From NCBI GenBank assembly GCA_026197075.1, contig JAPHQV010000029.1, positions 1 through 35,971 of the forward strand: a DNA stretch of 35,971 nt, in the 5' to 3' direction. The notes under the pieces were generated by a model. The model had not been told where the DNA came from and ran no database searches. It was given only the letters and a program-made list of their open reading frames with translations. The DNA comes from Gammaproteobacteria bacterium (GTDB lineage Bacteria > Pseudomonadota > Gammaproteobacteria > DSM-19610). Every line of letters begins with the position of its first letter. The first letter of the stretch is position 1. Below, in pieces: positions 2,972 through 35,971 of the stretch. Position numbers and translations under genes: made by a program.

Positions 2972-4786
2972 ATGCGTACCTATATCCATCCCACCGATAT
3001 GCCGGAATCCGGCCCCAGCGACCTGGGCACCCTGCGCGCGCTGTTGCCCTTCCTGTGGGACTACCGTGGACGCGTGATACTGGCCCTGGCAGCCCTGGTA
3101 TTGTCCAAGGTGGCCAACGTAGGCGTTCCCCTGGTACTCAAGGACATCGTCGATTCCCTCGACATCAGCAGCCAGGACGTCGCGCTGGTGCTTCCCCTGG
3201 GCCTGCTGCTGGCCTACGGCGCGTTGCGCATGACCTCTTCCCTGTTCAACGAGCTGCGCGACGCCCTTTTCGCCCGGGTGCGCCACGGCGCCATGCGCAA
3301 GGTCTCGCTGCGGGTGCTGGAACACCTGCATCGCTTGTCGCTGCGCTTTCACCTGGAACGCAAGACCGGCGGCATCTCGCGCGATCTGGAACGCGGCACC
3401 CGCAGTGTCAGTTCGATACTCAACTACATGGTATTCAGCATCCTGCCCACCCTGGTGGAAGTGACCCTGATCGCCGCCATCCTGCTGGGTCGCTACAGCG
3501 CCTGGTTCGCCGCTATCGCCTTTGGCTCGGTGGTCGTCTACATCCTGTTCACCTTCTACATCACCGAATGGCGCATGCACTACCGGGTGACCATGAATCG
3601 CCTGGACTCGGATGCCAATACCCGCGCCATCGACAGCCTGATCAACTACGAAACCGTGAAATATTTCGGTAATGAACCCCATGAATTGCGTCGCTACGAT
3701 CAGAACCTCACCGACTGGGAAGATGCCGCGGTCAAGAGCCAGACCTCCTTGTCGGCACTGAATTTCGGCCAGGCGGGCATCATCGCCATCGCCGTCACCC
3801 TGATGATGATACTGGCTGCCCAGGGCGTGGTGGATGGCCAGCTGAGCATTGGCGACCTGGTGCTCATCAACGCCTTTCTGTTACAACTGTTCATTCCGCT
3901 GAACTTCCTCGGCGTGGTCTACAGCCAGCTCAAACATGCCCTGACCGACATGCGCCTGATGCTCGACGTACTGGAACAACAGCCGGAGATCCAGGACCGC
4001 AAGGACGCGCCGGCCCTGGTGGTGGGACGCGGCGAAGTGGTATTCGACCAGGTCGGCTTCGCCTACGACCCCGAGCGGCCCATCCTGCACGGGGTCAGCT
4101 TCACCATCCCCGCCGGGCGCAAGGTGGCGGTGGTTGGGCCGAGTGGCTCCGGGAAATCCACCCTGGCACGCCTGTTGTTTCGCTTCTATGACGTGAACCA
4201 GGGCCGCATCCTGATCAACAATCAGGACATCCGCGAGGTCAGCCAGGAAAGCCTGCGCGCCGCCATCGGCATCGTGCCCCAGGACACCGTGCTGTTCAAT
4301 GAAAGCATCTACTACAACATCGCCTACGCCAGGCCCGACGCGGAACGGGCCGAGGTCATCGCCGCGGCAAGGGCCGCCAATATCCATGACTTCATCGACT
4401 CCCTGCCCAATGGCTATGACTCGGTGGTGGGCGAGCGTGGTCTGAAACTGTCGGGCGGCGAGAAGCAGCGCATCGCCATCGCCCGCGCCACCCTGAAAAA
4501 CCCGCGCATCCTGGTATTCGACGAGGCCACTTCGAGCCTCGACAGCCATTCGGAACAGGTAATCCTGGAGTCTCTGCGCCAGGCTGCCGCCCACCACACC
4601 ACCCTGGTCATCGCCCACCGCCTGTCGACGGTGGTGGATGCGGACCAGATCCTGGTGATGGAAAACGGACGCATCGTGGAACAGGGCAGCCACCTGCAAC
4701 TGCTGGAACGGCAAGGGGCCTATGCCAGGCTGTGGACGTTGCAGCAGGAAGAAAGCGCCAGCGAATTGCCCGAGACGACCCTGTAG
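2972..4786 (+). CDS. Atm1/HMT1-type ABC exporter, fused permease and ATPase
   Basis: A half-transporter of 604 residues with six hydrophobic segments in the first ~310 residues and a C-terminal nucleotide-binding domain. Visible motifs are Walker A (VGPSGSGKS, about 388-396), the signature LSGGEKQRIAIARA (from about 493) and Walker B (ILVFDEATSSLDS). A switch His follows in IAHRLSTV. The signature and the GERGLKLSGGEKQR context fit the Atm1/ABCB7/HMT1 group, which exports glutathione-linked or metal-thiol compounds; the substrate here is inferred. An ATG at 2936 is also possible, but TACAAT at 2932-2937, with a weak TTTTAC about 16 bases upstream, looks like a -10 box and favours the ATG at 2972. 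The stop TAG lies inside a REP hairpin. Confidence 0.92.
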   Translation: MRTYIHPTDMPESGPSDLGTLRALLPFLWDYRGRVILALAALVLSKVANVGVPLVLKDIVDSLDISSQDVALVLPLGLLLAYGALRMTSSLFNELRDALFARVRHGAMRKVSLRVLEHLHRLSLRFHLERKTGGISRDLERGTRSVSSILNYMVFSILPTLVEVTLIAAILLGRYSAWFAAIAFGSVVVYILFTFYITEWRMHYRVTMNRLDSDANTRAIDSLINYETVKYFGNEPHELRRYDQNLTDWEDAAVKSQTSLSALNFGQAGIIAIAVTLMMILAAQGVVDGQLSIGDLVLINAFLLQLFIPLNFLGVVYSQLKHALTDMRLMLDVLEQQPEIQDRKDAPALVVGRGEVVFDQVGFAYDPERPILHGVSFTIPAGRKVAVVGPSGSGKSTLARLLFRFYDVNQGRILINNQDIREVSQESLRAAIGIVPQDTVLFNESIYYNIAYARPDAERAEVIAAARAANIHDFIDSLPNGYDSVVGERGLKLSGGEKQRIAIARATLKNPRILVFDEATSSLDSHSEQVILESLRQAAAHHTTLVIAHRLSTVVDADQILVMENGRIVEQGSHLQLLERQGAYARLWTLQQEESASELPETTL

Positions 4787-4847
4787 GAGCGGGCTCCGCC
4801 CGCGAACCGTCGTGGCAACCCCGTTCGCGGGCGGAGCCCGCTCCTAC
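4783..4847. repeat. REP-like hairpin between convergent genes
   Basis: A 25-base arm (GTAGGAGCGGGCTCCGCCCG...) is repeated in perfect inversion after a short loop. The left arm contains the TAG stop of the ABC exporter (4784-4786). The right arm contains, on the other strand, the TAG stop of the PilZ gene (4844-4846). It is positioned to act as a bidirectional transcript end. Confidence 0.92.
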
Positions 4848-8947: not shown

Positions 8948-8956
8948 CAAGGCACC

Positions 8957-9024
8957 TGTAGGAGCGGGCTCTGCCCGCGAAAGGTTCGTGCCCGGTTCGT
9001 TCGCGGGCAGAGCCCGCTCCTACA
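8957..9024. repeat. REP-like hairpin, GGGCTCTGCCC class
   Basis: The arm starting TGTAGGAGCGGGCTCTGCCC and its exact inverted copy (25 bases each) flank an 18-base loop. It follows the SDR stop codon by nine bases. Confidence 0.92.
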
Positions 9025-9051
9025 AGGACCTGTGAAGGTGGCAGATTTCAG

Positions 9052-15730: not shown

Positions 15731-16537
15731 ATGCGTTTGTCGAGTATTTTTCTGATTACCTGTCTCCTGGTCCTCAACAGCGGCTGTGCCTGGCTGAGCA
15801 AGCAGGCCGATCCCACCGCCCGCATGTCCGCCGAGGAGCTGTACGCCACCGCCAAGGAATCCCTGGAGAAGAACGATTACGAAGTCGCCATCCAGCATTT
15901 CGAATCCCTGGAGGCGCGTTTCCCCTTCGGCCGCCACGCCCAGCAGGCACAGCTGGAGATCGCCTACGCCTATTACAAGAGCGGTGAATCCGATTCCGCC
16001 CTCGCCGCCCTGGACCGTTTCATCAATCGTCACCCGCAACATCCGCACGCGGATTATGCCTGGTACATGAAGGGGCTGGTGAATTTCAACCGTGGCGCCA
16101 GTTTTCTCGACCGCCTGTTCCCGCGTGATGCCACGGAACGGGACAATCGGGCCGCGCTCCAGGCCTTCCAGGATTTCAGCGAACTGCTGCGGCGCTACCC
16201 CAACAGCCGCTATGCCGAGGATGCCAGCCTGCGGGTGGTGTTCCTGCACAACGGCCTGGCGCGCCATGAGATAAACGTGGCGGAATACTACATCCGCCGC
16301 GGCGCTCCGGTGGCCGCCATCAACCGCGCCCGCTTCGTGCTGGAGAATTACCAGCGCACCCCGGCCGTGGCCGACGCCCTGGTGGTACAGGTGAAGGGCT
16401 ATCGCATGCTGGGGATGGACAGCCTGGCGAAGGATGCCCTGCGGGTGCTGCGGATGAATTACCCGGAGCATGCCTTTTTTGACGGACAGGCGGACGGCAA
16501 CACAGTAAGGCCGACCACCACCGGGTTTTCCCTGTAG
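15731..16537 (+). CDS. bamD: Outer-membrane assembly lipoprotein BamD
   Basis: An essential lipoprotein of the BAM complex that inserts beta-barrel proteins into the outer membrane. The 268-residue product has a lipoprotein signal, MRLSSIFLITCLLVLNSGC, with Cys19 the lipidated residue. Tandem TPR helices follow (SAEELYATAKESLEKNDYEV, ALAALDRFINRHPQHPHAD). The frame is open upstream, with ATGs at 15677 and 15710, but 15731 gives a clean signal peptide. A possible -10 box TATACT lies at 15683-15688. The TAG stop is provided by the start of a REP hairpin. It is divergent from rluD. Confidence 0.95.
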   Translation: MRLSSIFLITCLLVLNSGCAWLSKQADPTARMSAEELYATAKESLEKNDYEVAIQHFESLEARFPFGRHAQQAQLEIAYAYYKSGESDSALAALDRFINRHPQHPHADYAWYMKGLVNFNRGASFLDRLFPRDATERDNRAALQAFQDFSELLRRYPNSRYAEDASLRVVFLHNGLARHEINVAEYYIRRGAPVAAINRARFVLENYQRTPAVADALVVQVKGYRMLGMDSLAKDALRVLRMNYPEHAFFDGQADGNTVRPTTTGFSL

Positions 16538-16602
16538 GAGCGGCCTTGGCCGCGAACGCTTTGGCACGAAACCCGGTTCGCGGGCAGAGCCCGCTCCTAC
16601 AG
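16532..16602. repeat. REP-like hairpin with arms of two classes
   Basis: The left arm is of the GGCCTTGGCC class and the right arm of the GGGCAGAGCCC class. They pair at GTAGGAGCGG/CCGCTCCTAC and CGCGAAC/GTTCGCG but not between. The element looks like a recombinant of two REP types. It contains the bamD stop codon. Confidence 0.85.
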
Positions 16603-16652
16603 GCGCTTCATTGCGAGCAAAACTCAGCAATAACGGTCACGCCGGGGCTGGA

Positions 16653-18801
<2,149 letters not shown>

Positions 18802-22950: not shown

Positions 22951-22952
22951 CC

Positions 22953-23003
22953 CTGTAGGAGCGGGCTCTGCCCGCGAACATCCGCGGCCAAGGCCGCTCC
23001 TAC
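22953..23003. repeat. Compact REP-like hairpin with arms of two classes, inside pilSR
   Basis: The left arm is CTGTAGGAGCGGGCTCTGCC, and the right arm is GCGGCCAAGGCCGCTCCTAC of the other class. The outer ten bases pair; the interior does not. It lies between pilS and pilR and so could tune the ratio of the two products. Confidence 0.82.
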
Positions 23004-23038
23004 GGGGGAGCAGCACATTGACAGACTGGAATCACGAC

Positions 23039-24452: not shown

Positions 24453-24470
24453 GTAGTAAGTAGTATATTC

Positions 24471-24549
24471 TCGTCATTCCGGGGAATGCCGGCATCCAGA
24501 TCCCGCTACGCGGCAAATTCATGGATTCCCGCCAGCGCCGGAATGACGA
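24471..24549. repeat. dRS3-like inverted repeat, diverged copy
   Basis: The outer arms TCGTCATTCCGG and CCGGAATGACGA are inverted. Inner blocks (GGCATCCA and TGGATTCCCGCC) match the repeat at 13832 imperfectly. It marks the left edge of the toxin-antitoxin patch. Confidence 0.78.
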
Positions 24550-24603
24550 AAAATAGCCCTCTGCCTAAGTCAGTGCCATTCCTCTATATTTGGAAATATC
24601 CTC

Positions 24604-24894
24604 ATGAAACCGTCAACCGCCCTTGAGCTCAAGCGAACCGCCATACGCGAAATGGCTCGTCGATATCGCACGGGGAATCCACGGGTTTTTGGCTCCGTAT
24701 TGCATGGCACTGACCAGGATGATAGCGACCTTGATCTGCTGGTGGATGCTCTGCCTGGGGTTACTTTGTTCGATCTCGGTGGACTGCAAGCGGAACTGGA
24801 GGATTTACTTGGTGTACGGGTGGATCTATTGACGCCCGGTGACCTGCCACCAAAGCTGCGCGAACAAGTCCTGGCAGAGGCTCGTCCCGTATGA
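24604..24894 (+). CDS. MNT-type nucleotidyltransferase, toxin-antitoxin related
   Basis: A 96-residue minimal nucleotidyltransferase. The GS-x10-DxD motif is complete: Gly30-Ser31, then Asp42 and Asp44 in SDLDLLVD. In HEPN/MNT modules this protein acts as antitoxin by adding AMP to the HEPN toxin. No HEPN gene follows. Instead its stop overlaps an ATG (ATGA at 24891-24894), the usual coupling site to the partner, and the partner sequence is lost after about five codons. It may be an orphan, still active on a toxin elsewhere, or decaying. The start has a moderate GGAAAT ribosome site. Confidence 0.85.
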   Translation: MKPSTALELKRTAIREMARRYRTGNPRVFGSVLHGTDQDDSDLDLLVDALPGVTLFDLGGLQAELEDLLGVRVDLLTPGDLPPKLREQVLAEARPV

Positions 24895-25143
24895 CCGAGA
24901 GCCGCCTTTCTGCGCACCGCACTGGAAGAAATCAGCATCCCTGGTGGCGAGGCCGCGTTTCTTGCAGCGCTCAGACAAGTGGCACAAGCCCGGGGCGGCA
25001 TCACACAGCTTGCCAAGAATGCCAACATGAAACGCGAAGCCGTTTCGAGGGCCCTGTCCACGCGCGGAAATCCTACGCTCAAGACACTCGCGACCTTGTA
25101 CCGTGCCTTGCTGCCTGATGCAGGCGACAAGGATGCCGCCTGA
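24895..25143 (+). pseudogene. Start-less HTH antitoxin remnant (COG3636-like)
   Basis: In frame with, but after, the MNT stop codon lies a coherent 82-codon stretch ending at TGA 25141-25143. It reads AAFLRTALEEISIPGG, then AAFLAALRQVAQARGG, then an HTH with KREAVSRALSTRGNPTLKTL. This matches the C-terminal three-quarters of addiction-module antidote proteins of the COG3636/HigA-like type. There is no ATG at its beginning; a GTG within QVAQARG and a later ATG would give very short products. The reading is a 5'-deleted antitoxin fused behind the MNT gene. Family assignment is from motif memory. Confidence 0.65.
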
Positions 25144-25158
25144 CCCCGGTGTACCTGC

Positions 25159-25551
25159 CTAGAGCCCCCTCATACCCAATCCCCGTGCCTTGCGATCGAA
25201 GCTGACGACCTCCTGGCAGCCGTGCGCCCACGCGAGCTCGATGATGAGTGCATCGCTGAAATCGGCATTGGCCGCCACTTGGCGCCGCAGGGCGCGCACC
25301 ACCAGCGCCGCCCGCTCCACCCGCAGCTGCCGCGTCTCCAGCAAGGCGCGCAGGGCACGGGTAACATCCACGCGCCCGATGCCGTAACAGGCCCGCAGGA
25401 CCCAGGCGATCTCCGCCAGCACCACCAGCGAGATAAAACCCGGCTGACCGGCGGAGAGTTCCTCCTCGATAAAGGCGTTGGCCCGCGCGGCCTGCACCGG
25501 ATCATCCTGCATCAGGTAGCGGACCACCACATTGGTATCCAGACCGATCAT
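25159..25551 (-). CDS. vapC: VapC-type PIN-domain ribonuclease toxin
   Basis: A 130-residue PIN-domain nuclease that cleaves RNA unless held by its antitoxin. The acidic active-site residues are visible: Asp5 (MIGLDTNVVVRYL), Glu47 (LAEIAWVL), Asp97 and Asp100 (ADFSDALI), and Asp119 (SFDRKA). All appear intact, so the toxin is probably active. It follows the AbrB-type antitoxin gene after 21 bases on the same strand, in normal antitoxin-toxin order. Confidence 0.93.
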   Translation of the reverse strand: MIGLDTNVVVRYLMQDDPVQAARANAFIEEELSAGQPGFISLVVLAEIAWVLRACYGIGRVDVTRALRALLETRQLRVERAALVVRALRRQVAANADFSDALIIELAWAHGCQEVVSFDRKARGLGMRGL

Positions 25552-25572
25552 GGCGCCTCCTTGCGCATGCCG

Positions 25573-25830
25573 CTATTTGCGGGAACGTCGGTAACGGCCA
25601 ACCACCGCCTCGGCGATAGCCTTGTCCATATCCCCAGTCGAAACCGGCGTACCGGCCGGCCCCAGCATGCCACGCAAGGACCGCACATCCCGCGTGACCG
25701 CGATCAGCTCGAATCGGCCATCGCCCAGATCGACGAACTCCACCCGGTCACCGGCCGCCAGGCCGAGCGCCTCCCGTACCGGCTTGGGGATGGTGACCTG
25801 CCCCTTGGTGGTGAGGGTGGCGATGCTCAT
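25573..25830 (-). CDS. vapB: VapB-type AbrB/MazE-fold antitoxin
   Basis: An 85-residue protein with an N-terminal swapped-hairpin AbrB DNA-binding domain (ATLTTKGQVTIPKPVREALG, then GDRVEFVDLGDGRFEL). The C-terminal ~35 residues are less ordered and would wrap VapC. It binds its own promoter with VapC in known systems. Upstream lie a TAAGGAG ribosome site and an AT-rich stretch with two GTAAGG repeats (about 25843-25866), a possible operator. The pair looks complete. Confidence 0.92.
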   Translation of the reverse strand: MSIATLTTKGQVTIPKPVREALGLAAGDRVEFVDLGDGRFELIAVTRDVRSLRGMLGPAGTPVSTGDMDKAIAEAVVGRYRRSRK

Positions 25831-25915
25831 CGCATGACTCCTTACATTACTTAATAATCCTTACCGTAGCCCAGGACTCGGAATCCGTCAATTCCAGTTG
25901 CAATTCGTGGTCCGA

Positions 25916-25942
25916 CCCTACGGCGCTACGGCGCTCCTACAG
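25916..25942. repeat. Partial REP arm
   Basis: CTACGGCGCTACGGCGCTCC followed by TACAG resembles the right arm of the REP family but has no matching left arm. It is probably a degenerate copy in the vapB-higB gap. Confidence 0.5.
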
Positions 25943-25952
25943 CGTCACGGTT

Positions 25953-25986: not shown

Positions 25987-26268
25987 ATGATCAGGAGCTT
26001 TCGCTGCAAGGATACGCAGGCGCTGTTCGAGGGACGGACCCCGCGACGCTTCCGCGGCATCGAACAGCCGGCAACACGCAAGCTGCAGATGCTGGATGAC
26101 GTCGCTGTCCTGCAGCGCGATCTAGGAGGCATTCCCGGCAACCGTCTGGAAAAACTGTCCGGCAACCGCAAGGGACAATGGAGCATCCGGATCAACGATC
26201 AATGGCGCATCTGTTTCCAGTGGAAGGACGGTGATGCAAGCAACGTCGAGATTGTCGATTACCACTGA
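25987..26268 (+). CDS. higB: HigB/RelE-family mRNA interferase toxin
   Basis: A 93-residue ribosome-dependent nuclease of the HigB (RelE superfamily, plasmid maintenance killer) type. Family signatures are MIRSFRCKDTQALFEG at the start, RKLQMLDDVAVLQRDL in the helix, and the C-terminal sheet GQWSIRINDQWRICFQW followed by VEIVDYH. Length and motifs are complete. It precedes higA by nine bases, in the toxin-first order typical of HigBA. Confidence 0.95.
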   Translation: MIRSFRCKDTQALFEGRTPRRFRGIEQPATRKLQMLDDVAVLQRDLGGIPGNRLEKLSGNRKGQWSIRINDQWRICFQWKDGDASNVEIVDYH

Positions 26269-26277
26269 GGTACTGTC

Positions 26278-26592
26278 ATGGCTGCACCCAATAACCGCAT
26301 GCGCCCGGTTCATCCGGGTGAGATTCTGAGAGAAGACGTGCTTACGCCGATGGGCCTGAGCGCCAACGCACTCGCGCGCGAACTGCGCGTCCCGGTCACG
26401 CGGATCAGCGAAATCCTGCACGGTCGCCGGGCGATCACCGCCGATACGGCGCTGCGCCTGGCGCGTTACCTCGGCGTTTCAGCGCAATACTGGCTGAACC
26501 TGCAGGCCAGCTACGATCTGAAGGTTGCGGAGCAGACGTCGGGAAAGCAGATTGAAAGGGAAATCCAACCGCGGGAATCGGTGGCGGCTTGA
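26278..26592 (+). CDS. higA: HigA-family HTH antitoxin
   Basis: A 104-residue XRE-type helix-turn-helix antitoxin of the HigA group. It begins with the family's MRPVHPGEILREDVL (from residue 8), then the HTH SANALARELRVPVTRISEIL and the tail DTALRLARYLGVSAQYWLNL. It neutralises HigB and represses the operon in known systems. The C-terminal ~20 residues are variable. It has an AGGT ribosome site in the nine-base gap after higB. Confidence 0.95.
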   Translation: MAAPNNRMRPVHPGEILREDVLTPMGLSANALARELRVPVTRISEILHGRRAITADTALRLARYLGVSAQYWLNLQASYDLKVAEQTSGKQIEREIQPRESVAA

Positions 26593-27062: not shown

Positions 27063-27473
27063 ATGAAAAAGGTACAACAGGGTTTCACCCTAATCGAACT
27101 TATGATCGTTGTGGCGATCATTGGTATTCTGGCGGCCGTCGCGCTTCCGGCGTATCAGGACTACACCAACCGGGCAAAGGTTTCTGAAGTCATGCTGGCA
27201 GCATCCTCAGCACGCACCGCGATTGCTGAATTTGCCTCTACAAATAATGCATTGCCTACCGCCTCCTTCGCAGTTGAGACACAGGTATCAACCTACGTAA
27301 GTGGTGTTACCTGGAACGGCACCCTCGTCACTGCAACAGCAACAGGCACAAATGTAACCGCTATTGATGGGCAAACGATCACCTTGACGCCAACCCTCGG
27401 CAGCAATGGGCAGGTATCATGGGCATGTGCCGGCTCTATACCTGACAGATTCCGTCCGTCTAGCTGTCGCTAG
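27063..27473 (+). CDS. pilA: Type IV major pilin PilA
   Basis: The 136-residue precursor of the pilus subunit. The leader MKKVQQG is cut by PilD before Phe8, giving [20 protein letters not shown], with the conserved Glu at mature position 5. The N-terminal helix continues to about residue 55. A Thr-rich stretch follows ([13 protein letters not shown] and TITLTPTLG, about 87-113). Cys122 and Cys135 form the C-terminal disulfide loop. The start has a GGGGA ribosome site. The gene is driven by a -24/-12 promoter and ends at a strong terminator. The Thr-rich face and the glycosyltransferase genes downstream make O-glycosylation plausible. Confidence 0.96.
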
Positions 27474-27504
27474 GACCATCCTGCAAAGATGCAAGATGCA
27501 TCTC

Positions 27505-27540
27505 ACAAACCCCGGCGTGTGCCGGGGTTTGTGTATTTAA
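27505..27540 (+). terminator. Intrinsic terminator of pilA
   Basis: ACAAACCCCGGC pairs with GCCGGGGTTTGT around a GTGT loop, followed by GTATTTAAATTT. The stem is strong and the T tract weak. This isolates the abundant pilin message from the glycosyltransferase genes. Confidence 0.85.
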
Positions 27541-27565: not shown

Positions 27566-29557
27566 GTGAAGAATAATGACACTATAACTGCGGGCCTAAT
27601 TCTCTATATCGCCCTAGTAATCGTGGCGCTTGCCTATCTACCTGCACTTAGTGCGGGGTTTCATTTCGATGATATCGACAACCTTGCAGGTCTCAGCAAG
27701 ATTCTGGATACTCAGACTGCACTAGATTTTATTTTCGGTGGCCAAGCGGTCCCTTTAGGCCGACCTGTTGCACTAGCAAGTTTCGCGGCACAGGCCCATG
27801 CATGGCCAAGCTCGCCGGGGACGTTTCTTTACACCAATATCTGCATCCATCTACTAAATGGCCTTCTTGTCGCGTGGGTTGCATATCTTATTAATATCGG
27901 TAGGGGTCGAGAGCAAAAAAACTCCTCATTAATCGCCGTCATTTCAGCAGGGATTTGGATGATCCTCCCCCTGCTCGTCTCAAGCAATCTGTTCATCATT
28001 CAAAGAATGACAACACTGACATCAGGAATACTACTTGTAAGCCTGGTTGGCTACCTGAAAGCACGACAATCCCTAAACGAAAGACCATGCTTGGCGCTGA
28101 CATGGATGACACTTTGCTTAATTATAGGCACCTCATTTGCAACCTTGTCGAAAGAAAATGGCATTCTTCTACCTGCATTTGTACTGGTATTGGAATCCAC
28201 TCTACTTAGAAAGCCAGAAGTAATCCGCCCGACATTATGGCGCATATGGAAAGGAATTTTCATGTTTGTGCCACTCATAATCATTGTGGTTTTCCTAGCA
28301 CGCCAATTACCTTACCCCGAATCAACTGTTATCGCACGACAATACACCGGAGCAGAGCGGCTACTCACACAAGCTCACGTAATGTGGTTATATATCTGGA
28401 ATGCCTTTATCCCGAATCCTTCAGCACTTGGCCCATTTCATGACGACCAAGCCATCTATCGGTACCCATTAAGCTTCACGAGTGTAGTTTCTGTGCTCGG
28501 ATGGTGCCTAGCTATACTTATCGCCATCATCCATCGTAAAAGACGACCCGAAATCTCCTTTGCGGTAGGCTGGTTCATGACAGGCCACTTACTAGAGTCA
28601 TCCACTGTGGCTCTAGAACTCTATTTTGAGCATAGAAACTACACTCCAATCATTGGGCCGATATTTGCAGTTGTTACACTGTTGTTAAGCACTACAAATC
28701 TACGCTTCCAAAGGCTCGCTCACGCTGGGTTAGCAGCTTACAGTATCGCGCTGATTTTCACGCTCATAAATCAGACGAGCCTTTGGGGAAGCTCACGCCT
28801 TGCGGCCGAAATGTGGGCAATCCAGAAGCCTGATTCACCCAGGGCAATTACAAATCTCGCCATGAAGCTGGAGACAGAAGGTGAGTTCCAAGCGATTGAT
28901 CGTATATTATCTGATTTTTTGAACCGCCATCCTCATGCACAAATAATTCGTTTACAAAAAATAATTTACTCATGCAATCTTGTGCCTGAAAACTCGAATA
29001 TCGACATCAATCAGCTCAGCTTTACGCCCGTTAAAAATTCGATCAATTTTGCGACATGGGCGTCAAGAGTACCCGAAATACTTTATGCAAAAAAATTGAA
29101 CAATAACTGCGAAAATTTTAATGAAAATGAAATAGCCTCTCTTGCAAACAACCTCTTGGCACATCCCGATATCCAGTACTCGAAGATAGCAATTCACAAT
29201 TTGAACAGCATACTCTCAGCAATGGCGATAAATCGCGGCGATTTCGTTACGGCCACCATCAATCTCGACAAGGCGTTGAGCGCAAGTTTCAATATTGACA
29301 CTCTTGAAGTCGCACTGCGTGTCGCCGTTTTTAATTCTGATTTTTCCCGCGCAGAAAGCCTACTCAATGCGGCTGAATATTACCGCCCCACTCACCCTGT
29401 AAAAGGCATTATATGGGATCGAGAAATTGACCGAATGACAACATTGGTCTCCAATAGAAAATTGGAGTATTTCTCTAGCGAAAAGACCAGCCATGTTGAC
29501 GTAATTCAATCCCACGATGGGCCAGGAATTGAAAAGAATAGATCCTCCAATATATAA
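27566..29557 (+). CDS. GT-C/TMTC-like membrane glycosyltransferase, candidate pilin glycosyltransferase
   Basis: A 663-residue integral membrane protein. About eleven hydrophobic helices fill the first ~400 residues. The first outer loop carries FHFDDIDNL (32-40), the acidic motif typical of GT-C enzymes that use lipid-linked sugars. Further TMTC-like marks are SKENGI (195-200) and FEHRNYTPIIG (354-364). The final ~240 residues are soluble and helical, resembling degenerate TPR repeats. The start is a GTG at 27566 with a poor ribosome site; no better start is seen. Base composition is clearly AT-richer than left of pilA. The position right after pilA parallels tfpO and tfpW in Pseudomonas, which glycosylate pilin, but I see no clear homology to either. 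The pilin-modification role is inferred. Confidence 0.75.
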   Translation: MKNNDTITAGLILYIALVIVALAYLPALSAGFHFDDIDNLAGLSKILDTQTALDFIFGGQAVPLGRPVALASFAAQAHAWPSSPGTFLYTNICIHLLNGLLVAWVAYLINIGRGREQKNSSLIAVISAGIWMILPLLVSSNLFIIQRMTTLTSGILLVSLVGYLKARQSLNERPCLALTWMTLCLIIGTSFATLSKENGILLPAFVLVLESTLLRKPEVIRPTLWRIWKGIFMFVPLIIIVVFLARQLPYPESTVIARQYTGAERLLTQAHVMWLYIWNAFIPNPSALGPFHDDQAIYRYPLSFTSVVSVLGWCLAILIAIIHRKRRPEISFAVGWFMTGHLLESSTVALELYFEHRNYTPIIGPIFAVVTLLLSTTNLRFQRLAHAGLAAYSIALIFTLINQTSLWGSSRLAAEMWAIQKPDSPRAITNLAMKLETEGEFQAIDRILSDFLNRHPHAQIIRLQKIIYSCNLVPENSNIDINQLSFTPVKNSINFATWASRVPEILYAKKLNNNCENFNENEIASLANNLLAHPDIQYSKIAIHNLNSILSAMAINRGDFVTATINLDKALSASFNIDTLEVALRVAVFNSDFSRAESLLNAAEYYRPTHPVKGIIWDREIDRMTTLVSNRKLEYFSSEKTSHVDVIQSHDGPGIEKNRSSNI

Positions 29558-29724
29558 GCTCACTCATAACTCGTAACGGTATAAATTAAGCAGATTAGAC
29601 CAATCATTCTGACCACATCACAATTTAGAGAAGATCATAGGATGACAAGCACTATTTCTCTCCCCACAGACTTCCTCGGTAAGCCGAAACCTCCTATTTG
29701 GAAACCATCCATTACGAAAATCTC
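29558..29724. other. Gap between GT-C gene and first GT4 gene
   Basis: It is AT-rich, with no gene, hairpin or clear promoter found. A TTG at 29698 opens the downstream frame early but lacks a ribosome site. Confidence 0.4.
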
Positions 29725-30909
29725 ATGAATCACCCACACAAACTAAGCATACTCGTCGTTTCCACATCATTTCCAACGACAATGAATCCAGTAAGCGGAA
29801 TTTTCATTAAGCGACTCACCGATGCTCTCGCGATAAACAACAAACTTCGCGTACTTGCCCCCGCCGGCAGAAGGAATTTCGATGCTGATAATAGCAATTA
29901 TCCCGTAGATTTTTTTCGTTATGGAATGCGCTCTTGGCAAGGACTCACTCATGATCCAGGCGGGATACCGATGGCCATAAAACGCCAGCCTCTTTTCTGG
30001 TTCGTGACCCCATTCTTCATGGCGAGCATGTTTTTAGCCGCTATGCGAGCGAGTCGAGATGTCGATATTATTCATGCAAATTGGACAATAACAGGTCTTA
30101 TATGCTGCCTTGTAGGGAAACTTCGGCACCTACCAGTCTTAACCACACTGCGTGGATCGGATGTCGAAAGCATATCAACATCAACCCTTAGCCGGATACT
30201 TGCAGGATTAACAATTCGCCTCAGCATCAAAACCGTAACAGTAAGCAGTAAGATGCTAGAATCTCTGCAGCAGCATTTCCCCAATAATGCTCATTGCATT
30301 ACTCACATACCTAATGGAGTCAACGACGTTTTTTTTAGAATACCGTTACCTACTCCAGAAGTACGAAATATCAAGCTTGTCGCTATTGGGAACCTCACGC
30401 CCACAAAAGGTGTAAGAGATATTATCGATGCAATATCTACCATTAAGTCTTCAGTTACAATCACAATCGTCGGTGATGGGCCGGAACGAGATAATCTGGA
30501 AAACCAGGCACGCAGTCTCGGGCTTGAGGATAAAATTACATTTCTAGGCGCATGCGATCCAGAAAAAATACCAGGTATTCTTTGCGCCCATGACGCACTC
30601 ATTCTAGCAAGTCACTCAGAAGGACGCCCCAACGTGGTTATTGAGGCAATGGCGGCAGGCCGCGCAGTACTCGCCTCTATGCTACCTGGGGTTCGGGAGC
30701 TGATTGACGATCACAAAAACGGGCTCCTGTTTCCACCAGGTGACGCCGCCGCCATCTCTAAAGCAATTGTTTATTTATGTGAAGAACCAAAGAGAATTCT
30801 TCAGTTTGGAATATCTGCACGAAAAAGCATAGAAGATCTAGAACTAAGCTGGACTTCCTGCGCAAACAGGTACACTCAACTATACACTCAAATTATGGAT
30901 GGGAAGTAG
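29725..30909 (+). CDS. GT4-family glycosyltransferase
   Basis: A 394-residue GT-B enzyme. The N-terminal acceptor domain begins LSILVVSTSFPTTMNPVSGIF. The C-terminal donor domain has VAIGNLTPTKGVRD (about 219-232), IVGDGPERDNLE and the EX7E motif with Glu299 and Glu307 in EGRPNVVIEAMAAG. It is a retaining sugar transferase of the cytoplasmic face, so it probably extends a lipid-linked glycan. The sugar cannot be read. The ATG at 29725 is favoured over the TTG at 29698. It is followed by asnB after three bases, so the genes are co-transcribed. It is AT-rich like its neighbours. Confidence 0.9.
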   Translation: MNHPHKLSILVVSTSFPTTMNPVSGIFIKRLTDALAINNKLRVLAPAGRRNFDADNSNYPVDFFRYGMRSWQGLTHDPGGIPMAIKRQPLFWFVTPFFMASMFLAAMRASRDVDIIHANWTITGLICCLVGKLRHLPVLTTLRGSDVESISTSTLSRILAGLTIRLSIKTVTVSSKMLESLQQHFPNNAHCITHIPNGVNDVFFRIPLPTPEVRNIKLVAIGNLTPTKGVRDIIDAISTIKSSVTITIVGDGPERDNLENQARSLGLEDKITFLGACDPEKIPGILCAHDALILASHSEGRPNVVIEAMAAGRAVLASMLPGVRELIDDHKNGLLFPPGDAAAISKAIVYLCEEPKRILQFGISARKSIEDLELSWTSCANRYTQLYTQIMDGK

Positions 30910-30912
30910 TCT

Positions 30913-32760
30913 ATGTGCGGACTAGCGTTCCAGTACACTCACGATCAACATCCAGAAGCAGTGAAGCATGCAATGAATGCCGCACTGAAAAGACTCCAAC
31001 ATCGCGGGCCTGACGAGAATGGGCTTTACGCTGACACGCCAGCGTATTTCGCCCATGCAAGATTATCTATCGTCGACCTTAATGACAGTCATCAACCCAT
31101 GCATTCTCCTGATCAACGATTCACACTGGTATTCAATGGAGAAATCTACAACCACAAGGGATTGCGAAACGACCTTGCAAGCAAATGGACCTTCATTACT
31201 AAAGGTGATACCGAAGTTATATTGGCCGGGTTGATCCTTGAAGGCGAAAATTTCCTAACTCGCATGCAAGGGATGTGGGCATTTGCTTTTTGGGACAGTA
31301 GAACAGAACGTCTTTTACTGAGCCGTGATCGTATGGGAGAAAAACCTCTCTATTACACCCAACAACATGGCCGTTTCTCATGCGCTTCCGAGCTGCCAGC
31401 CTTACGCTGCCTAGCCACTTCACCCTGGAGCGATGACCTCGACTCGTCCGCTGACTATTTTCGCTTTGGCTATTGCTTACCAGGGTACACTGCCTGGAAA
31501 CAGGTCTTTGAGGTACTACCGGGACACTGGCTAAGCTGGCGGCCAGGAGCGCCCATTGAACAGCACGCCTATTGGAAGTTGAACCTACCTGGATCAGAAA
31601 AATCACCTACAAATGATGACGATCTCCGTCACGCACTTGGCGAAGCCGTCAGGTCACGATTATTGGCAGACGTCGAAATAGGAGCATTTCTTTCAGGCGG
31701 CATCGATTCCTCCTTGATCTGTGCTTTAGCACAAGAGCAGATAAAACGCCCTCTCAAGACCTACACAATCGGCTTCAATCAATCATCTTACGACGAAAGT
31801 CACCATGCAGCAGAAGTTGCAGCATTTCTTGGTACTGATCACCATTGCGAAATCTTCACACATTGGGATGAAAAACAGCTAGAGAGCCTATTGCACAATC
31901 ACCTTGGCCAGCCATTTTCTGATTCTTCTCTGCTTCCAACGGCGTTAGTGAGTCGCGTTGCCGCAGGGGGGGTTAAAGTTTCACTCTCTGGAGACGGCGC
32001 AGATGAGTTATTTGGCGGTTATCAGCGTTATCAGGCCCGAATCATTCTGCGATGGTACAGTCGCTTGCCCGGCACATTAAAAAAGGTCTCCGAGAAAATC
32101 ATACAAGCCATCCCAGAACCTATGACACACCATAGTCGAAACCTATTAAAAAAGGCGCATCTATTCGTGGACATTGCCATGCGACAGCGCGCAGAAACCC
32201 CCTACATAGCACCTCTAATGTTTCATCCAGACGAATATGCCACCCTTTTTCCCGACCTGGTTGGCCTCGGCCACACGCCACATGGATTACCCCAACAGTC
32301 ACAACCTGATGATCTCCAGCAAATGCTCTACAGTGATTCCCTAATCTACCTTCCGCAAGATATCTTAGCCAAAGTTGACCATGCCAGCATGGCCAGCAGC
32401 CTCGAAACACGCGCACCATTCCTTGATCATAAAGTCGTTGAACTTGCATTCAAACGGGATGCCCGCCAACATTTGTCGATCGGAAATGGAAAAAAATGGA
32501 TACGCACAGCCTTCCATGACAAGCTTCCGGAAAAGACATGGGATAGACGCAAGCAAGGTTTCGGAGTCCCTGTTCACGAGTGGTTTCGTGGCGAACTTGG
32601 CGGCAAGCTAGTAAATTTACTAGCCAGCCAACCCAGCCCCATACGGAGTGAAGCAGCACTGAAAATGCTCAGCGCACACAAAAGTGGTGCACGTGATCAT
32701 GGTCATCGCTTATGGATGCTATATGTTTACCTTAGCATGCAAAATTATGGCCAGCATTGA
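30913..32760 (+). CDS. asnB: AsnB-type glutamine-dependent amidotransferase
   Basis: A 615-residue two-domain enzyme. Cys2 (MCGLAF) is the glutaminase nucleophile, with RLQHRGPDENG and VFNGEIYNH in the Ntn domain. The synthetase domain has the pyrophosphatase loop SGGIDSS (261-267) and SGDGADELFGGYQR (around 368). Both active sites appear complete. General asparagine synthesis is possible. Its place between two glycosyltransferase genes suggests that it instead amidates a sugar acid, as proposed for WbpS-type proteins in O-antigen clusters. It begins three bases after the first GT4 gene and overlaps the second by 14 bases. Confidence 0.9.
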   Translation: MCGLAFQYTHDQHPEAVKHAMNAALKRLQHRGPDENGLYADTPAYFAHARLSIVDLNDSHQPMHSPDQRFTLVFNGEIYNHKGLRNDLASKWTFITKGDTEVILAGLILEGENFLTRMQGMWAFAFWDSRTERLLLSRDRMGEKPLYYTQQHGRFSCASELPALRCLATSPWSDDLDSSADYFRFGYCLPGYTAWKQVFEVLPGHWLSWRPGAPIEQHAYWKLNLPGSEKSPTNDDDLRHALGEAVRSRLLADVEIGAFLSGGIDSSLICALAQEQIKRPLKTYTIGFNQSSYDESHHAAEVAAFLGTDHHCEIFTHWDEKQLESLLHNHLGQPFSDSSLLPTALVSRVAAGGVKVSLSGDGADELFGGYQRYQARIILRWYSRLPGTLKKVSEKIIQAIPEPMTHHSRNLLKKAHLFVDIAMRQRAETPYIAPLMFHPDEYATLFPDLVGLGHTPHGLPQQSQPDDLQQMLYSDSLIYLPQDILAKVDHASMASSLETRAPFLDHKVVELAFKRDARQHLSIGNGKKWIRTAFHDKLPEKTWDRRKQGFGVPVHEWFRGELGGKLVNLLASQPSPIRSEAALKMLSAHKSGARDHGHRLWMLYVYLSMQNYGQH

Positions 32761-33883
32761 CCAGTCAACAAATGAAGTCACATTATTTCTAGCCAATCTC
32801 GAAATGGGAGGAGCGGAGCGAGTAATTATCACTTTATCGAAAAAATTGGTTCAAAAGGGCCACAAGGTTAGCCTTATACTTGCAGATGCAAGTGGACCCT
32901 TACTAAACGAAGTAGATCCTAGCGTTCAGATTATAGACTTAAAATCATATCGAGCTGGCGAGCCAAGTTGGATCTTTGGTCTGCGCACATTATTAAAATT
33001 GAAGAAGCAATTAGAACGCAGCACACCTAATGTCTTATTAACCACCCTCACTGGAGCCAATTTGGTGGCTCTCATCGCAAAAAAGATTAGCAGCAGCAAA
33101 TTCCGACTGGTAATTCGTGAGGCGGCGCCCCCGAAAAATATTCGCTCACTTGCGCGCAGGCAGTTGGTTCGGTGGCTATATCCGTCAGCAGACCAAATCA
33201 TCGCTTTAACGACATCAATGAAGAATGAGATGATAGCCTCCATTGGACTACCAGCAAATAAAATCAGTGTAATCGGAAACCCATTGGATTCTGAAAGAAT
33301 TAACGAACTTGCAAATGATGAACAGGACAACTTTGAAATCCTAAAGAGGAAACCTTACATTATTTCCATAGGACGGCTTACAGAACCAAAAGACTTCGTT
33401 ACCCTAATTCGCGCCACTTCTAAGCTGCCATCAACCGACATAAACATGGTGATTATTGGTGAAGGACCCCAAAGGCCTATGATTGAATCACTGATTCAAA
33501 GCCTGAATCTCCAGAATCGTATCCATTTACTAGGTTTTCGCTCTAACCCATACCCATGGTTGCAAGCGGCATCGGGGTTCGTCCTTTCATCACGTTGGGA
33601 AGGCCACCCAAACTCTCTCCTAGAAGCGCTGCATTTTGGTTTGCCAATTGTGTCCACGGAATACGATCTTTCTGTATGGTCACTATTAGCCCCTCTATCA
33701 TCCGAACAGTTTAGAATCGTACCCATTGGCGATGTTGACGCTCTTTCTCGTGCTATGACTGATATATTTATTAACGTTCATACCGAACATCAAAATTATC
33801 ATTGCGGATATTCGGCCAATAATACAGTTGAACTATTCGAATCGACACTTTTCCCCTCTCAACCGAATGGCGGCGGGCAATGA
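32747..33883 (+). CDS. GT4-family glycosyltransferase
   Basis: A 378-residue GT-B enzyme. The acceptor domain begins with LANLEMGGAERVIITLSK (15-32), a frequent opening in polysaccharide GT4 enzymes. The donor domain shows ISIGRLTEPKDF (206-217), IIGEGPQRPMIE and the EX7E pair Glu285 and Glu293 in EGHPNSLLEALHFG. The frame is open upstream inside asnB, but the ATG at 32747 gives a normal N-terminus with a 14-base overlap. It is also overlapped by the next gene (four bases), so translation is coupled through the block. Confidence 0.9.
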   Translation: MASIDQSTNEVTLFLANLEMGGAERVIITLSKKLVQKGHKVSLILADASGPLLNEVDPSVQIIDLKSYRAGEPSWIFGLRTLLKLKKQLERSTPNVLLTTLTGANLVALIAKKISSSKFRLVIREAAPPKNIRSLARRQLVRWLYPSADQIIALTTSMKNEMIASIGLPANKISVIGNPLDSERINELANDEQDNFEILKRKPYIISIGRLTEPKDFVTLIRATSKLPSTDINMVIIGEGPQRPMIESLIQSLNLQNRIHLLGFRSNPYPWLQAASGFVLSSRWEGHPNSLLEALHFGLPIVSTEYDLSVWSLLAPLSSEQFRIVPIGDVDALSRAMTDIFINVHTEHQNYHCGYSANNTVELFESTLFPSQPNGGGQ

Positions 33884-34821
33884 TTGCGCCGGAATCAAGC
33901 AGGAGTGAGCCAATCACGAATTCGCAGAACGATTGGCAGAAAAACATCCGACGGGTAGCTTATCTATTAGTTCTTTTACTAATAGTCGTATTCCTAGCAA
34001 CGCTTGGGTCAACGCCCTGGCATCATGTCATATCAAACTGGCCCACTTTGTTTGCCGTAATGATTAGCACGGGGGCCGGGATCGTTATCCAAGCTCAGTC
34101 GTTTCGGTCAGTATGCATATCTGGCGCTCCAACCTTGCTTACAACCACCTCGATATGGTCAGTTTCTGCCTTAGTTTCGATTGCAACCCCTCTGCTGGCT
34201 GGTATTGCAACTCGAACAGCCTTACTGACCAAAGCAGGAGTGCCCTTGGGGCCCTGCCTGCTCAGCAGCATTCGCCAAATGTGGGTTGGGCTAGAATATG
34301 CGTTGCTTCTAGGAGCAGTTAGCTTCCCTTTCACTTCGTGGCCATTTTCCTTATGGGCTGCGATCGGTGCTGGCGCCGCCTGGACTGCGTTGATTACAAC
34401 CCGACTCGCTAGTGCGCGTCAGCTCATCAAGAATTTGGGCAGATTCAAACCAAACCGAATCCGTAAAGCACTAGACTCCCTCAGAACACATATTCCAGGA
34501 GAGGCTCATCTCTGGTTTGTGCTGCAAATACTCATGATGAGCACCACCTATTTCTTGGGCTTCAACGGCATGGGGGCAGAGCTTAGCTTGATACAGGCAA
34601 TCGCGCTTTCAGCACTGACTGTTATTTTGAGTTTGATCGTATTTGTGCCAAACGGATTAGGCATTACCGATGCACTATGGGTATTGGTCGCTACGCATGG
34701 AGGATTCACTCTGGATCAGGCAGTAGCAGTGGCTATTGTTATCCGGCTTTCTCACCTACTATCTTCGGGACTCATATATTTCATTGCTTCAGCAAAAATT
34801 CATAAACTCAATACTTCTTAA
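33880..34821 (+). CDS. Flippase-like membrane protein (LPG-synthase TM / AglD-YbhN type)
   Basis: A 313-residue integral membrane protein with about eight hydrophobic segments. The late motif FVPNGLGITDALWVLVATHG matches the P-x-GLG-x-x-[ED] signature of the lysylphosphatidylglycerol-synthase transmembrane family, whose members flip or handle lipid-linked sugars. It lacks the soluble aminoacyl-transfer domain. The position after two glycosyltransferases suggests a part in moving the glycan lipid across the inner membrane, which would supply the GT-C enzyme. This is inference. Its ATG overlaps the upstream stop by four bases. Its 3' end overlaps the convergent methyltransferase gene by 14 bases. 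Confidence 0.8.
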   Translation: MIAPESSRSEPITNSQNDWQKNIRRVAYLLVLLLIVVFLATLGSTPWHHVISNWPTLFAVMISTGAGIVIQAQSFRSVCISGAPTLLTTTSIWSVSALVSIATPLLAGIATRTALLTKAGVPLGPCLLSSIRQMWVGLEYALLLGAVSFPFTSWPFSLWAAIGAGAAWTALITTRLASARQLIKNLGRFKPNRIRKALDSLRTHIPGEAHLWFVLQILMMSTTYFLGFNGMGAELSLIQAIALSALTVILSLIVFVPNGLGITDALWVLVATHGGFTLDQAVAVAIVIRLSHLLSSGLIYFIASAKIHKLNTS

Positions 34822-35590
34822 TGATCACACCTTGCCCAGTAGGGAGATGCACAATAGTTTCAGCGCGCCCCAACATAAACTCATTAGCTGCAGCAAAAGC
34901 CCCAGGACAATTCTCGAAGCCATAATCATCCATCACGATTATCCCTCCTGCGACCATTCGATCATAAAAGAATTCAAGACTGCTCAAGGTAGGCTCATAC
35001 AGGTCCACATCAATGTGAACCAGCTTAAATAACTGGCCGTCGACTTCAGAAAATCGCTCAGGAATCCAGCCTTTCATGATGTGAATATTACTGAATTCCT
35101 TCATGCGTTCTCTCAGGACTTCTTCGATGGAAGCCAAATCACCTTCCGACCACTGTTGCACACCTTCTGGGCTAAGGTCTTTCTCTGACGGCATAGAAAG
35201 CCCCTCAAATGAGTCGAAAAGATAGAACTCCACACCAGAAATTTCATTCGCGATAAACCATGCAGCCACACCAGTATAACTGCCACACTCAGCGACTGCG
35301 CCATCCAGATTCCGCGTACTCCTGGCGAACTCCTTCAACGCATATTTTCGCTCCATAGAAAAATAATTATGTGGCGATAAAGCCTTAAAGCGGCGACAAA
35401 AACCCTCATCGCTTAGCCAAAGCTTGTAGTCATCCCCAATATAATGTCCTCCGAGTAACTCAGCTGCAACTCGCGCTAATTCATGCAGTGCTCGGCGACG
35501 AGTCGGGGTTGGCCCGAAAATGAGTGACTTGACACCCTTAATAACCCGAAAGGTCGAAAACATGCGGGTTGGATGAGGCAAATTTGTCAT
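34808..35590 (-). CDS. TylF/MycF-type O-methyltransferase
   Basis: A 260-residue SAM-dependent methyltransferase of the macrocin O-methyltransferase (TylF) family. The SAM site is AECGSYTGVAAWF. The metal-binding acidic residues are in VHIDVDLYEPTLSSLEFFY and GGIIVMDDYGFENCPG. The N-terminal FSMERKYALKEFA region is also typical. Such enzymes methylate sugar hydroxyls and recur in O-antigen and glycan clusters. The ATG at 35590 has a GGAAAG ribosome site; longer starts at 35605 and 35635 are possible. It faces the flippase-like gene, with overlapping 3' ends. Confidence 0.9.
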   Translation of the reverse strand: MTNLPHPTRMFSTFRVIKGVKSLIFGPTPTRRRALHELARVAAELLGGHYIGDDYKLWLSDEGFCRRFKALSPHNYFSMERKYALKEFARSTRNLDGAVAECGSYTGVAAWFIANEISGVEFYLFDSFEGLSMPSEKDLSPEGVQQWSEGDLASIEEVLRERMKEFSNIHIMKGWIPERFSEVDGQLFKLVHIDVDLYEPTLSSLEFFYDRMVAGGIIVMDDYGFENCPGAFAAANEFMLGRAETIVHLPTGQGVIIKKY

Positions 35591-35887
35591 TTTGTTTCTT
35601 TCCATTCCTACCATTAACAGACCCCGACTATCCACAACCTATTTAAAGATCCCTCAGTAAGCCATGTAGAAAAACAATACCTTTCCACTCAACCTGAAAC
35701 TCCTCTTGACGCATCGGCTTCCCGTAGAGCTAAAAATTCTTCATCGCTGAAGGTTTACTGTTTCATCAAGATATGTCCATTGCGCACAAAGCATGCCTCA
35801 TGGAAGCTGCTGATGCTTAATCAGAATTGTATTAGATGGTAAAAAATCTGATCGACCACACGTTATGAATACTGGGTCTTCCCCACA
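35591..35887. other. AT-rich intergenic region
   Basis: About 300 bases with no credible gene. Short coding-like pieces (for example FSDEEFLALREADAS on the minus strand near 35705-35745) lack a start and are closed by stops, so they may be decayed sequence. No hairpin repeat of the classes seen elsewhere is present. Confidence 0.4.
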
Positions 35888-35971
35888 TCAGGTGGGTAAA
35901 CCCTGTTGCTTGATCCCGGCAGGGTAGAGATCCAGCCCGCCGAGATGGAAGTAAATTGCGTTGCGGAAGCG
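35888..35971 (-). CDS. C-terminus of an unidentified protein, cut by window edge
   Basis: A frame open to the window edge ends at TGA 35888-35890. The last 27 residues include FHLGGLDLYPAGIKQQGLP. The composition is GC-richer than the adjoining DNA. I do not recognise the family with certainty; a transposase tail is one possibility given the position at the edge of an acquired block. Confidence 0.4.
   Translation of the reverse strand, partial: RFRNAIYFHLGGLDLYPAGIKQQGLPT

Follow-up and report, generated by a model that had tools for sequence, protein, structure and literature searches.

The 35,971 nucleotides analysed here, called the window below, make up the entire contig JAPHQV010000029.1 of the gammaproteobacterial genome assembly GCA_026197075.1 (contig C25 of genome G000, 2.99 Mb) and carry an AT-rich block of glycan genes directly behind the major type IV pilin gene pilA. 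This block is probably an exchanged pilin-glycosylation cassette that fills the interval between pilA and pilB, and it would assemble, on undecaprenyl phosphate (Und-P), a glycan bearing amide and methyl groups. The pilin is very likely the molecule that is modified, and we hold with the same confidence that the transferase is a GT-C membrane protein encoded next to pilA.

The pilA-pilB interval and its exchange

In 1-kb windows the GC content averages 0.65 (range 0.61–0.72) left of 24.4 kb and 0.46, with a maximum of 0.494, over the rest of the contig beyond 27.5 kb. Composition is not uniform across this boundary and the drop is large, which bears out the switch from GC-rich to AT-rich DNA with changed codon use that the first-pass annotation of the window had described by eye. 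GC at third codon positions (GC3) is 0.92 in pilS and 0.87 in pilR on the flank, and 0.44 in the GT-C gene, 0.41 in the gene of the first GT4 glycosyltransferase (GT4a), 0.46 in asnB, 0.40 in the gene of the second (GT4b), 0.48 in the LPG_synthase_TM gene and 0.46 in tylF. The pilA gene (27,063–27,473, plus strand; 136 aa, PF00114 and PF07963) has a GC3 of 0.53, which already leans towards the low values. The low-GC block takes in pilA itself and exceeds the limits first given for it, its right end sitting outside the window on a second contig of the same assembly, C8.

How the block came to its place is indicated by the sister species G001, in which the order is pilA-GT-C-LPG_synthase_TM-methyltransferase-GT4-GT2-pilB. 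The flanking proteins of the two species are nearly the same (identity of 97 % for PilS, 95 % for PilR, 95–96 % for PilB and 96 % for PilC), yet PilA reaches only 53 %, GT-C 35 % and GT2 80 %. DNA homology breaks off inside pilA, at position 27,193, and is found again from C8:114 onward, where the GT2 gene ends, to reach 95 % in pilB. By sequence, the cassette was replaced via recombination in conserved flanks together with the variable part of pilA, whose co-exchange follows from the two points at which homology stops and resumes; this result comes from a sister comparison within one genus. The block would be swapped as a unit through the conserved 5′ end of pilA on one side and the GT2/pilB side on the other. 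The view of a cassette acquired behind the pilin gene therefore holds as far as horizontal exchange is concerned, but the block was not inserted behind an old pilA, and simple insertion behind an unchanged pilA is ruled out by the G001 comparison.

The same comparison bears on a vertical origin, in which the AT-rich block would be old and would owe its foreign look to relaxed selection. The slot itself is old, as several family members carry GT-C and GT2 at this site, but flanks that are about 94–95 % identical enclose a different pilA, GT-C and cargo in G001, and with 35 % identity the GT-C of G001 is too divergent for the orthologue that vertical descent would leave. We regard this origin as very improbable, and the sister comparison already largely refutes it.

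Presence and absence among relatives complete the picture. Six genomes of the same family (G003, G006, G010, G013, G016 and G019) have an empty site with the order pilR-pilA-pilB-pilC, while in G004 and G007 the gap between pilA and a confirmed PilB and PilC is filled with GT-C, GT2 and other glycan genes, the filled sites having the order pilA-GT-C-GT2-cargo-pilB. The family relatives include Thiogranum-like genomes, and one and the same cassette is found in G007 (contig C79) and in Thiogranum sp. LH_M44 (locus L190).

The right end of the window is formed by an insertion sequence, whose left end (35,874–35,971) makes up the last 98 bases, a repeat that recurs at the end of contig C17. An element of this kind has its opposite end at the start of C8 (C8:1–99). 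Aligned as inverted repeats, the two ends match over 25 bp with a score of 30, compared to 24 for the best of 300 shuffles, and an 8-bp target duplication, TGAATACT, stands at 35,866–35,873 and again at C8:100–107. Due to this duplication and the paired end repeats, C25, the insertion sequence and C8 are most likely contiguous. The length of the duplication is reminiscent of ISL3, and no match to the element's end was found in a plasmid collection. Beyond the join, C8 encodes GT2 (C8:107–1087, minus strand) and pilB (C8:1272–2990), followed by pilC, pilD and coaE. The inferred full order is thus pilS-pilR-(toxin-antitoxin genes)-pilA-GT-C-GT4a-AsnB-GT4b-LPG_synthase_TM-TylF(−)-[insertion sequence]-GT2(−)-pilB-pilC-pilD, so that the block occupies the pilA-pilB gap. 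All six glycan genes that had been listed for the window are in place with the domain types assigned to them, the GT-C type by fold only, whereas the putative priming GT2 on the next contig had been missed and TylF lies on the opposite strand.

The predicted GT-C transferase and its GT2 partner

The GT-C gene (27,566–29,557, plus strand) begins 92 bp behind pilA and encodes 663 aa with a C-terminal TPR domain (residues 430–640), a predicted pilin glycosyl- or oligosaccharyltransferase. Its product has no sequence match in Pfam or the PDB and nothing specific in NCBIfam, and Foldseek alone returned no hit with E <0.001 for the AlphaFold model (pLDDT 88.7). Structural alignment of residues 1–430, however, gave VIA Z scores of 18.8 for yeast oligosaccharyltransferase (OST), 17.8 for AglB, 17.5 for Pmt4, 15.9 for ALG12 and 15.6 for ArnT, while unrelated helical-repeat entries scored about 11–12, below the OST and PMT matches; PglB and Stt3 are matched in the fold search as well. 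The model thereby supports the earlier assignment to the GT-C membrane enzymes and indicates an STT3/PMT-like fold joined to a TPR domain. No Wzy/WaaL-like (O-antigen ligase) domain was detected by Pfam in the protein or its 33 relatives, which sets the family apart from O-oligosaccharyltransferases of the PglL, TfpO, TfpM and PglS type. The eukaryotic TMTC proteins, which also combine GT-C and TPR parts, were considered as relatives and rejected: none of the 34 members has a DUF1736-type match, and the likeness is one of layout only.

A relative of known function is TfpW of Pseudomonas paraeruginosa PA7, a GT-C pilin arabinosyl/oligosaccharyltransferase, which we take to be encoded at L280:3837–5759 in the order pilA-TfpW-TfpX. 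It matches the GT-C family profile with an E value of 1.3e-16 over columns 9–463 of 644, and both share a DD pair in the first outer loop as well as RP and SKE motifs; on this sequence evidence GT-C is a remote TfpW homologue. Further Pseudomonadaceae loci (L281–L287) encode weakly related GT-C proteins of 538–697 aa right behind pilA and near pilB, and the slot in Pseudomonas therefore holds a wide TfpW-like superfamily.

The family is found in 46 of 144 relatives and in more than 583 stretches of GTDB genomes, with carriers including Pseudomonas viridiflava, Acinetobacter, Methylomonas, Thauera, Dyella and Rhodanobacter. In 56 of 80 named loci a major pilin gene lies upstream, within 3.5 kb of GT-C, and overall GT-C stands behind a pilin in 86 of 131 loci, many of the remaining ones being cut by contig ends. 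The terminator reported between pilA and the cassette was located as a strong hairpin of 13 pairs at 27,504–27,533 on the plus strand. Of 83 loci, 50 have a similar hairpin behind the pilin gene, compared to 2.3 % of shuffles. Some loci of Dyella, Rhodanobacter and others (L210, L231, L223, L052 and L073) have tandem pairs of pilin genes, of GT-C genes or of both. The additional GT-C is often only about 28–30 % identical to that of the window, and each pilin, or each linkage, may have a GT-C of its own there. At L086 (G053:C1) several stops and frameshifts disrupt the GT-C gene that follows the pilin.

One could also think of GT-C as chiefly a factor for pilin assembly or stability, TfpY-like and acting via its TPR domain with little or no catalysis. 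TPR domains bind proteins, and some pilin accessory proteins are indeed not glycosyltransferases (PMC11841053). Against such a role, D35-D36 and the EHRNY motif (355–359) are invariant or nearly so across 34 members that share about 25 % identity, the GT2 partner is constant, and the homologue TfpW is a demonstrated pilin glycosyltransferase. We give this explanation hardly any weight and retain GT-C as the transferase.

The GT2 partner is the most regular companion of GT-C. A GT2 of this type lies downstream in 61 of 86 pilin-bearing loci and is more conserved than GT-C in 82 of 82 loci, with a median identity of 60 % versus 32 %. In the PDB it best matches ArnC, dolichol-phosphate mannose synthase and GtrB, and of the NCBIfam models the archaeal AglJ (TIGR04182) scores highest, matching over the full length. 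As GT2 stays constant while the other cassette genes vary, the first sugar, placed on a lipid monophosphate, is suggested to be constant as well.

The cargo genes and the predicted glycan

Four genes on the plus strand follow GT-C after a gap of 140 bp. GT4a (29,698–30,909; PF00534, PF13692) is separated by 3 bp from asnB (30,913–32,760), which encodes an AsnB-type glutamine amidotransferase of 615 aa (PF13537, PF00733; TIGR01536 over its cut-off) with both the nucleophile Cys2 and the SGGIDSS loop intact. It overlaps by 14 bp with GT4b (32,747–33,883, start codon uncertain within 32,684–32,747), for which the best NCBIfam model is PglJ (NF050063) at 156 bits, under the cut-off of 500. GT4b in turn overlaps by 4 bp with the gene of an HpnL/UPF0104-like LPG_synthase_TM membrane protein (33,880–34,821; PF03706 with 43.1 bits against a cut-off of 33.4), a predicted glycolipid flippase. 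The TylF-type sugar O-methyltransferase gene (34,811–35,635, minus strand; PF05711, 62.3 bits) is convergent with it, overlapping by 11 bp, and its PDB relatives are the sugar O-methyltransferases NovP and MycF. The tightly spaced run is hence that from GT4a to the LPG_synthase_TM gene.

The set GT4a-AsnB-GT4b-TylF recurs in six families and always at pilin loci, namely in G376, G351, G026, Dyella (including D. kyungheensis, L231) and Rhodanobacter and, partly degraded, in G217. Together with the presence and absence in relatives, this recurrence substantiates the proposed link of a glycan pathway to the pilin. In G351 the gene order is identical, with tylF likewise on the minus strand, while no GT4b relative was found in the G026 cassette and no TylF in the truncated Rhodanobacter locus L223. 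Among these loci AsnB is 44–63 % and TylF 33–56 % identical, the highest TylF value belonging to the pilin cassette of G376, whereas GT-C reaches merely 25–33 %; GT4a shares 32–36 % identity with its counterparts in four other pilin cassettes. In 350 genomes of the class, other AsnB genes past an E value of 1e-110 were found only in three of the pilin loci that hold the module. The decayed cassette of G217 (L294, contig C118) keeps a shortened GT2, a split GT4a and an intact AsnB, lacks GT-C, and has a pilin nearby with a TfpY-like neighbour of 255 aa on the other strand, which suggests that a GT-C cassette was replaced by a TfpY-type one.

From the families of these enzymes we infer a four-step pathway. 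GT2 would load one hexose-type sugar onto Und-P, as ArnC, dolichol-phosphate mannose synthase, GtrB and AglJ would lead one to expect, and GT4a and GT4b would extend the glycan in the cytoplasm. AsnB would convert a uronic acid to its amide and TylF would O-methylate a sugar. Amidation of uronic acids is the usual role of AsnB enzymes in glycan clusters, with WbpS-type enzymes acting on O-antigen sugars (PMC6025236); the window enzyme has the AsnB architecture and catalytic motifs, and a UDP-uronic acid, as for WbpS, would be its predicted substrate. We regard an amidated uronic acid in the glycan as an even call. The LPG_synthase_TM protein would move the lipid-linked glycan across the membrane. 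This flippase role, which we somewhat favour, is predicted because other cassettes carry Wzx/MATE or ABC transporter genes in its stead, and in none of the 11 fully bounded cassettes, few as they are, do two flippase kinds occur together. Finally, GT-C would transfer the glycan to Ser or Thr of PilA while its periplasmic TPR domain may hold the pilin.

As genes of the GT4, AsnB, TylF and LPG_synthase_TM types are also found in polysaccharide loci, and O-antigen sugars are amidated by AsnB enzymes such as WbpS, the block might be a lipopolysaccharide (LPS), O-antigen or exopolysaccharide cluster that merely adjoins pilA, with GT-C modifying the polysaccharide. However, unlike in O-antigen/LPS clusters, Pfam detects no Wzy, WaaL or initiating phosphoglycosyltransferase among the cassette products, and the window cassette has no Wza or ABC export set either. 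In every genome where close AsnB relatives were found they lie at pilin loci, and in several families the block ends exactly at pilA and pilB, making a polysaccharide cluster an improbable explanation.

A pilin glycan could also be built by the usual route, in which a WecA/PglC-type enzyme encoded elsewhere starts it on undecaprenyl pyrophosphate (Und-PP), extension is left to GT4a and GT4b and en bloc transfer to GT-C, while GT2 adds a separate Und-P-linked monosaccharide as in three-component side-branch systems. In line with this, GT4b is most like PglJ, an enzyme working on Und-PP-linked acceptors, three-component systems consist of a GT2, a GT-C and a flippase (PMC11127046), and PglB and Stt3 are among the fold matches of GT-C, next to Pmt and ArnT. 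On the other hand, neither this cassette nor those compared with it hold a phosphoglycosyltransferase, and no other partner of GT-C is as conserved or as constant as GT2 while the remaining glycan genes vary, as expected of a sugar that GT-C must recognise. We consider the usual route rather unlikely and lean slightly towards a donor linked to Und-P instead of Und-PP.

Several observations weigh against an Und-P-based pilin-glycosylation cassette nonetheless. The AglJ score of GT2 (115.5 bits) is below the equivalog cut-off of 325, and it is unusual for a bacterial pathway to combine Und-P-monosaccharide synthases with GT4 extension enzymes; Und-PP acceptors supplied by a WecA-type enzyme encoded elsewhere might be what the GT4s work on. 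The cassette encodes no uronic acid dehydrogenase, although two UDP-sugar dehydrogenases are encoded elsewhere in the genome. In 45 of the 131 GT-C loci no pilin was found within 3.5 kb, and some members of the family may act otherwise. Ser and Thr are only marginally enriched in the linked pilins (p=0.046 with a small control group), and this was not used.

Outside the cassette, the interval between pilR and pilA holds a nucleotidyltransferase-like open reading frame and a PIN/AbrB-like toxin-antitoxin pair (24,459–25,946) that are absent from G001, as well as a HigBA-like pair (25,987–26,592) within sequence common to both species (94 %). Dispersed repeats of about 50–80 bp at 1–53, 4,777–4,847, 8,955–9,030, 16,527–16,604, 17,066–17,148 and 22,951–23,007 resemble REP-type palindromic repeats and have several copies in the sister genome on both strands.

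Relation to known systems and biological meaning

The first-pass annotation had thought a pathway for an amidated, methylated sugar linked to a pilin locus new, but glycan genes next to pilA as such have precedents in the pilin-accessory cassettes of P. aeruginosa and P. paraeruginosa with TfpO or TfpW (pilA-tfpO, pilA-tfpW-tfpX; PMC11841053, PMC12369383). As in the window, an accessory glycosyltransferase stands directly behind pilA, pilin and accessory genes are exchanged as a unit, and a terminator separates pilA from the accessory gene in P. aeruginosa (PMC11841053). In Pseudomonas, though, the glycan genes lie elsewhere, in a D-arabinofuranose (D-Araf) island or the O-antigen locus, whereas here the cassette itself holds GT2, two GT4s, AsnB, TylF and a flippase candidate and occupies a pilA-pilB interval, pilB following pilA in gene order. 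TfpW resembles the window GT-C in its place behind pilA, its homologous GT-C part and the acidic pair in the first outer loop, but the match excludes the C-terminal TPR half and the domain layout differs. Its partners differ too: here they are an AglJ/ArnC-like GT2 and GT4s in place of a ribofuranosyl-phosphate/UbiA pathway, and Pfam detects no D-Araf pathway genes in the cassette.

The predicted chemistry resembles N-glycosylation in Haloferax, where AglJ puts the first sugar on dolichol phosphate, AglG, AglI and AglE extend it, the methyltransferase AglP decorates a uronic acid and AglB transfers the product (PMC3871713). Both pathways would combine a DPM1-like GT2 priming a lipid monophosphate, extending glycosyltransferases, a methyltransferase and an STT3-fold enzyme; the pathway described here is bacterial, has a TPR-bearing transferase and an additional amidotransferase, and its pilin target is presumably O-linked. 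Three-component periplasmic glycosylation (GtrA/GtrB/Gtr; PMC11127046) likewise pairs a polyprenyl-phosphate sugar synthase of the GT2 type with a GT-C, found here in the same pilA-pilB interval, and has a flippase, for which the cassette offers a candidate. The cassette differs in its predicted pilin target and its added GT4, amidotransferase and methyltransferase genes, which imply an oligosaccharide.

What is new here is the predicted self-contained glycan pathway and the conserved GT-C/GT2 core in a pilin-accessory cassette, and a literature search without most subscription journals found no published description of this cassette type. We tentatively propose a widespread proteobacterial O-glycosylation in which an AglJ-like GT2 primes Und-P and exchangeable enzymes of the cassette extend and decorate the glycan. 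The complete oligosaccharide would then pass from Und-P to the major pilin through the STT3/PMT-like, TPR-bearing GT-C. Bacteria might thereby have a counterpart to the dolichol-phosphate glycosylation of archaea, and the pilA-pilB gap would be its variable locus, an idea that calls for equal caution.

Pilin glycosylation by TfpO and TfpW protects from pilus phages (PMC11841053, PMC12369383), and a plausible benefit of the cassette is an altered pilus surface towards pilus-binding phages. If our interpretation is true, the pilus sugars of many environmental proteobacteria would be set by a hot-swap locus comparable to the O-antigen locus, with a bearing on the arms races between phages and pili. 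A large GT-C/TPR family, so far uncharacterised and tied to a fixed GT2 partner, would also receive a name, and the transfer of an oligosaccharide from a lipid monophosphate to protein in bacteria would become directly testable.

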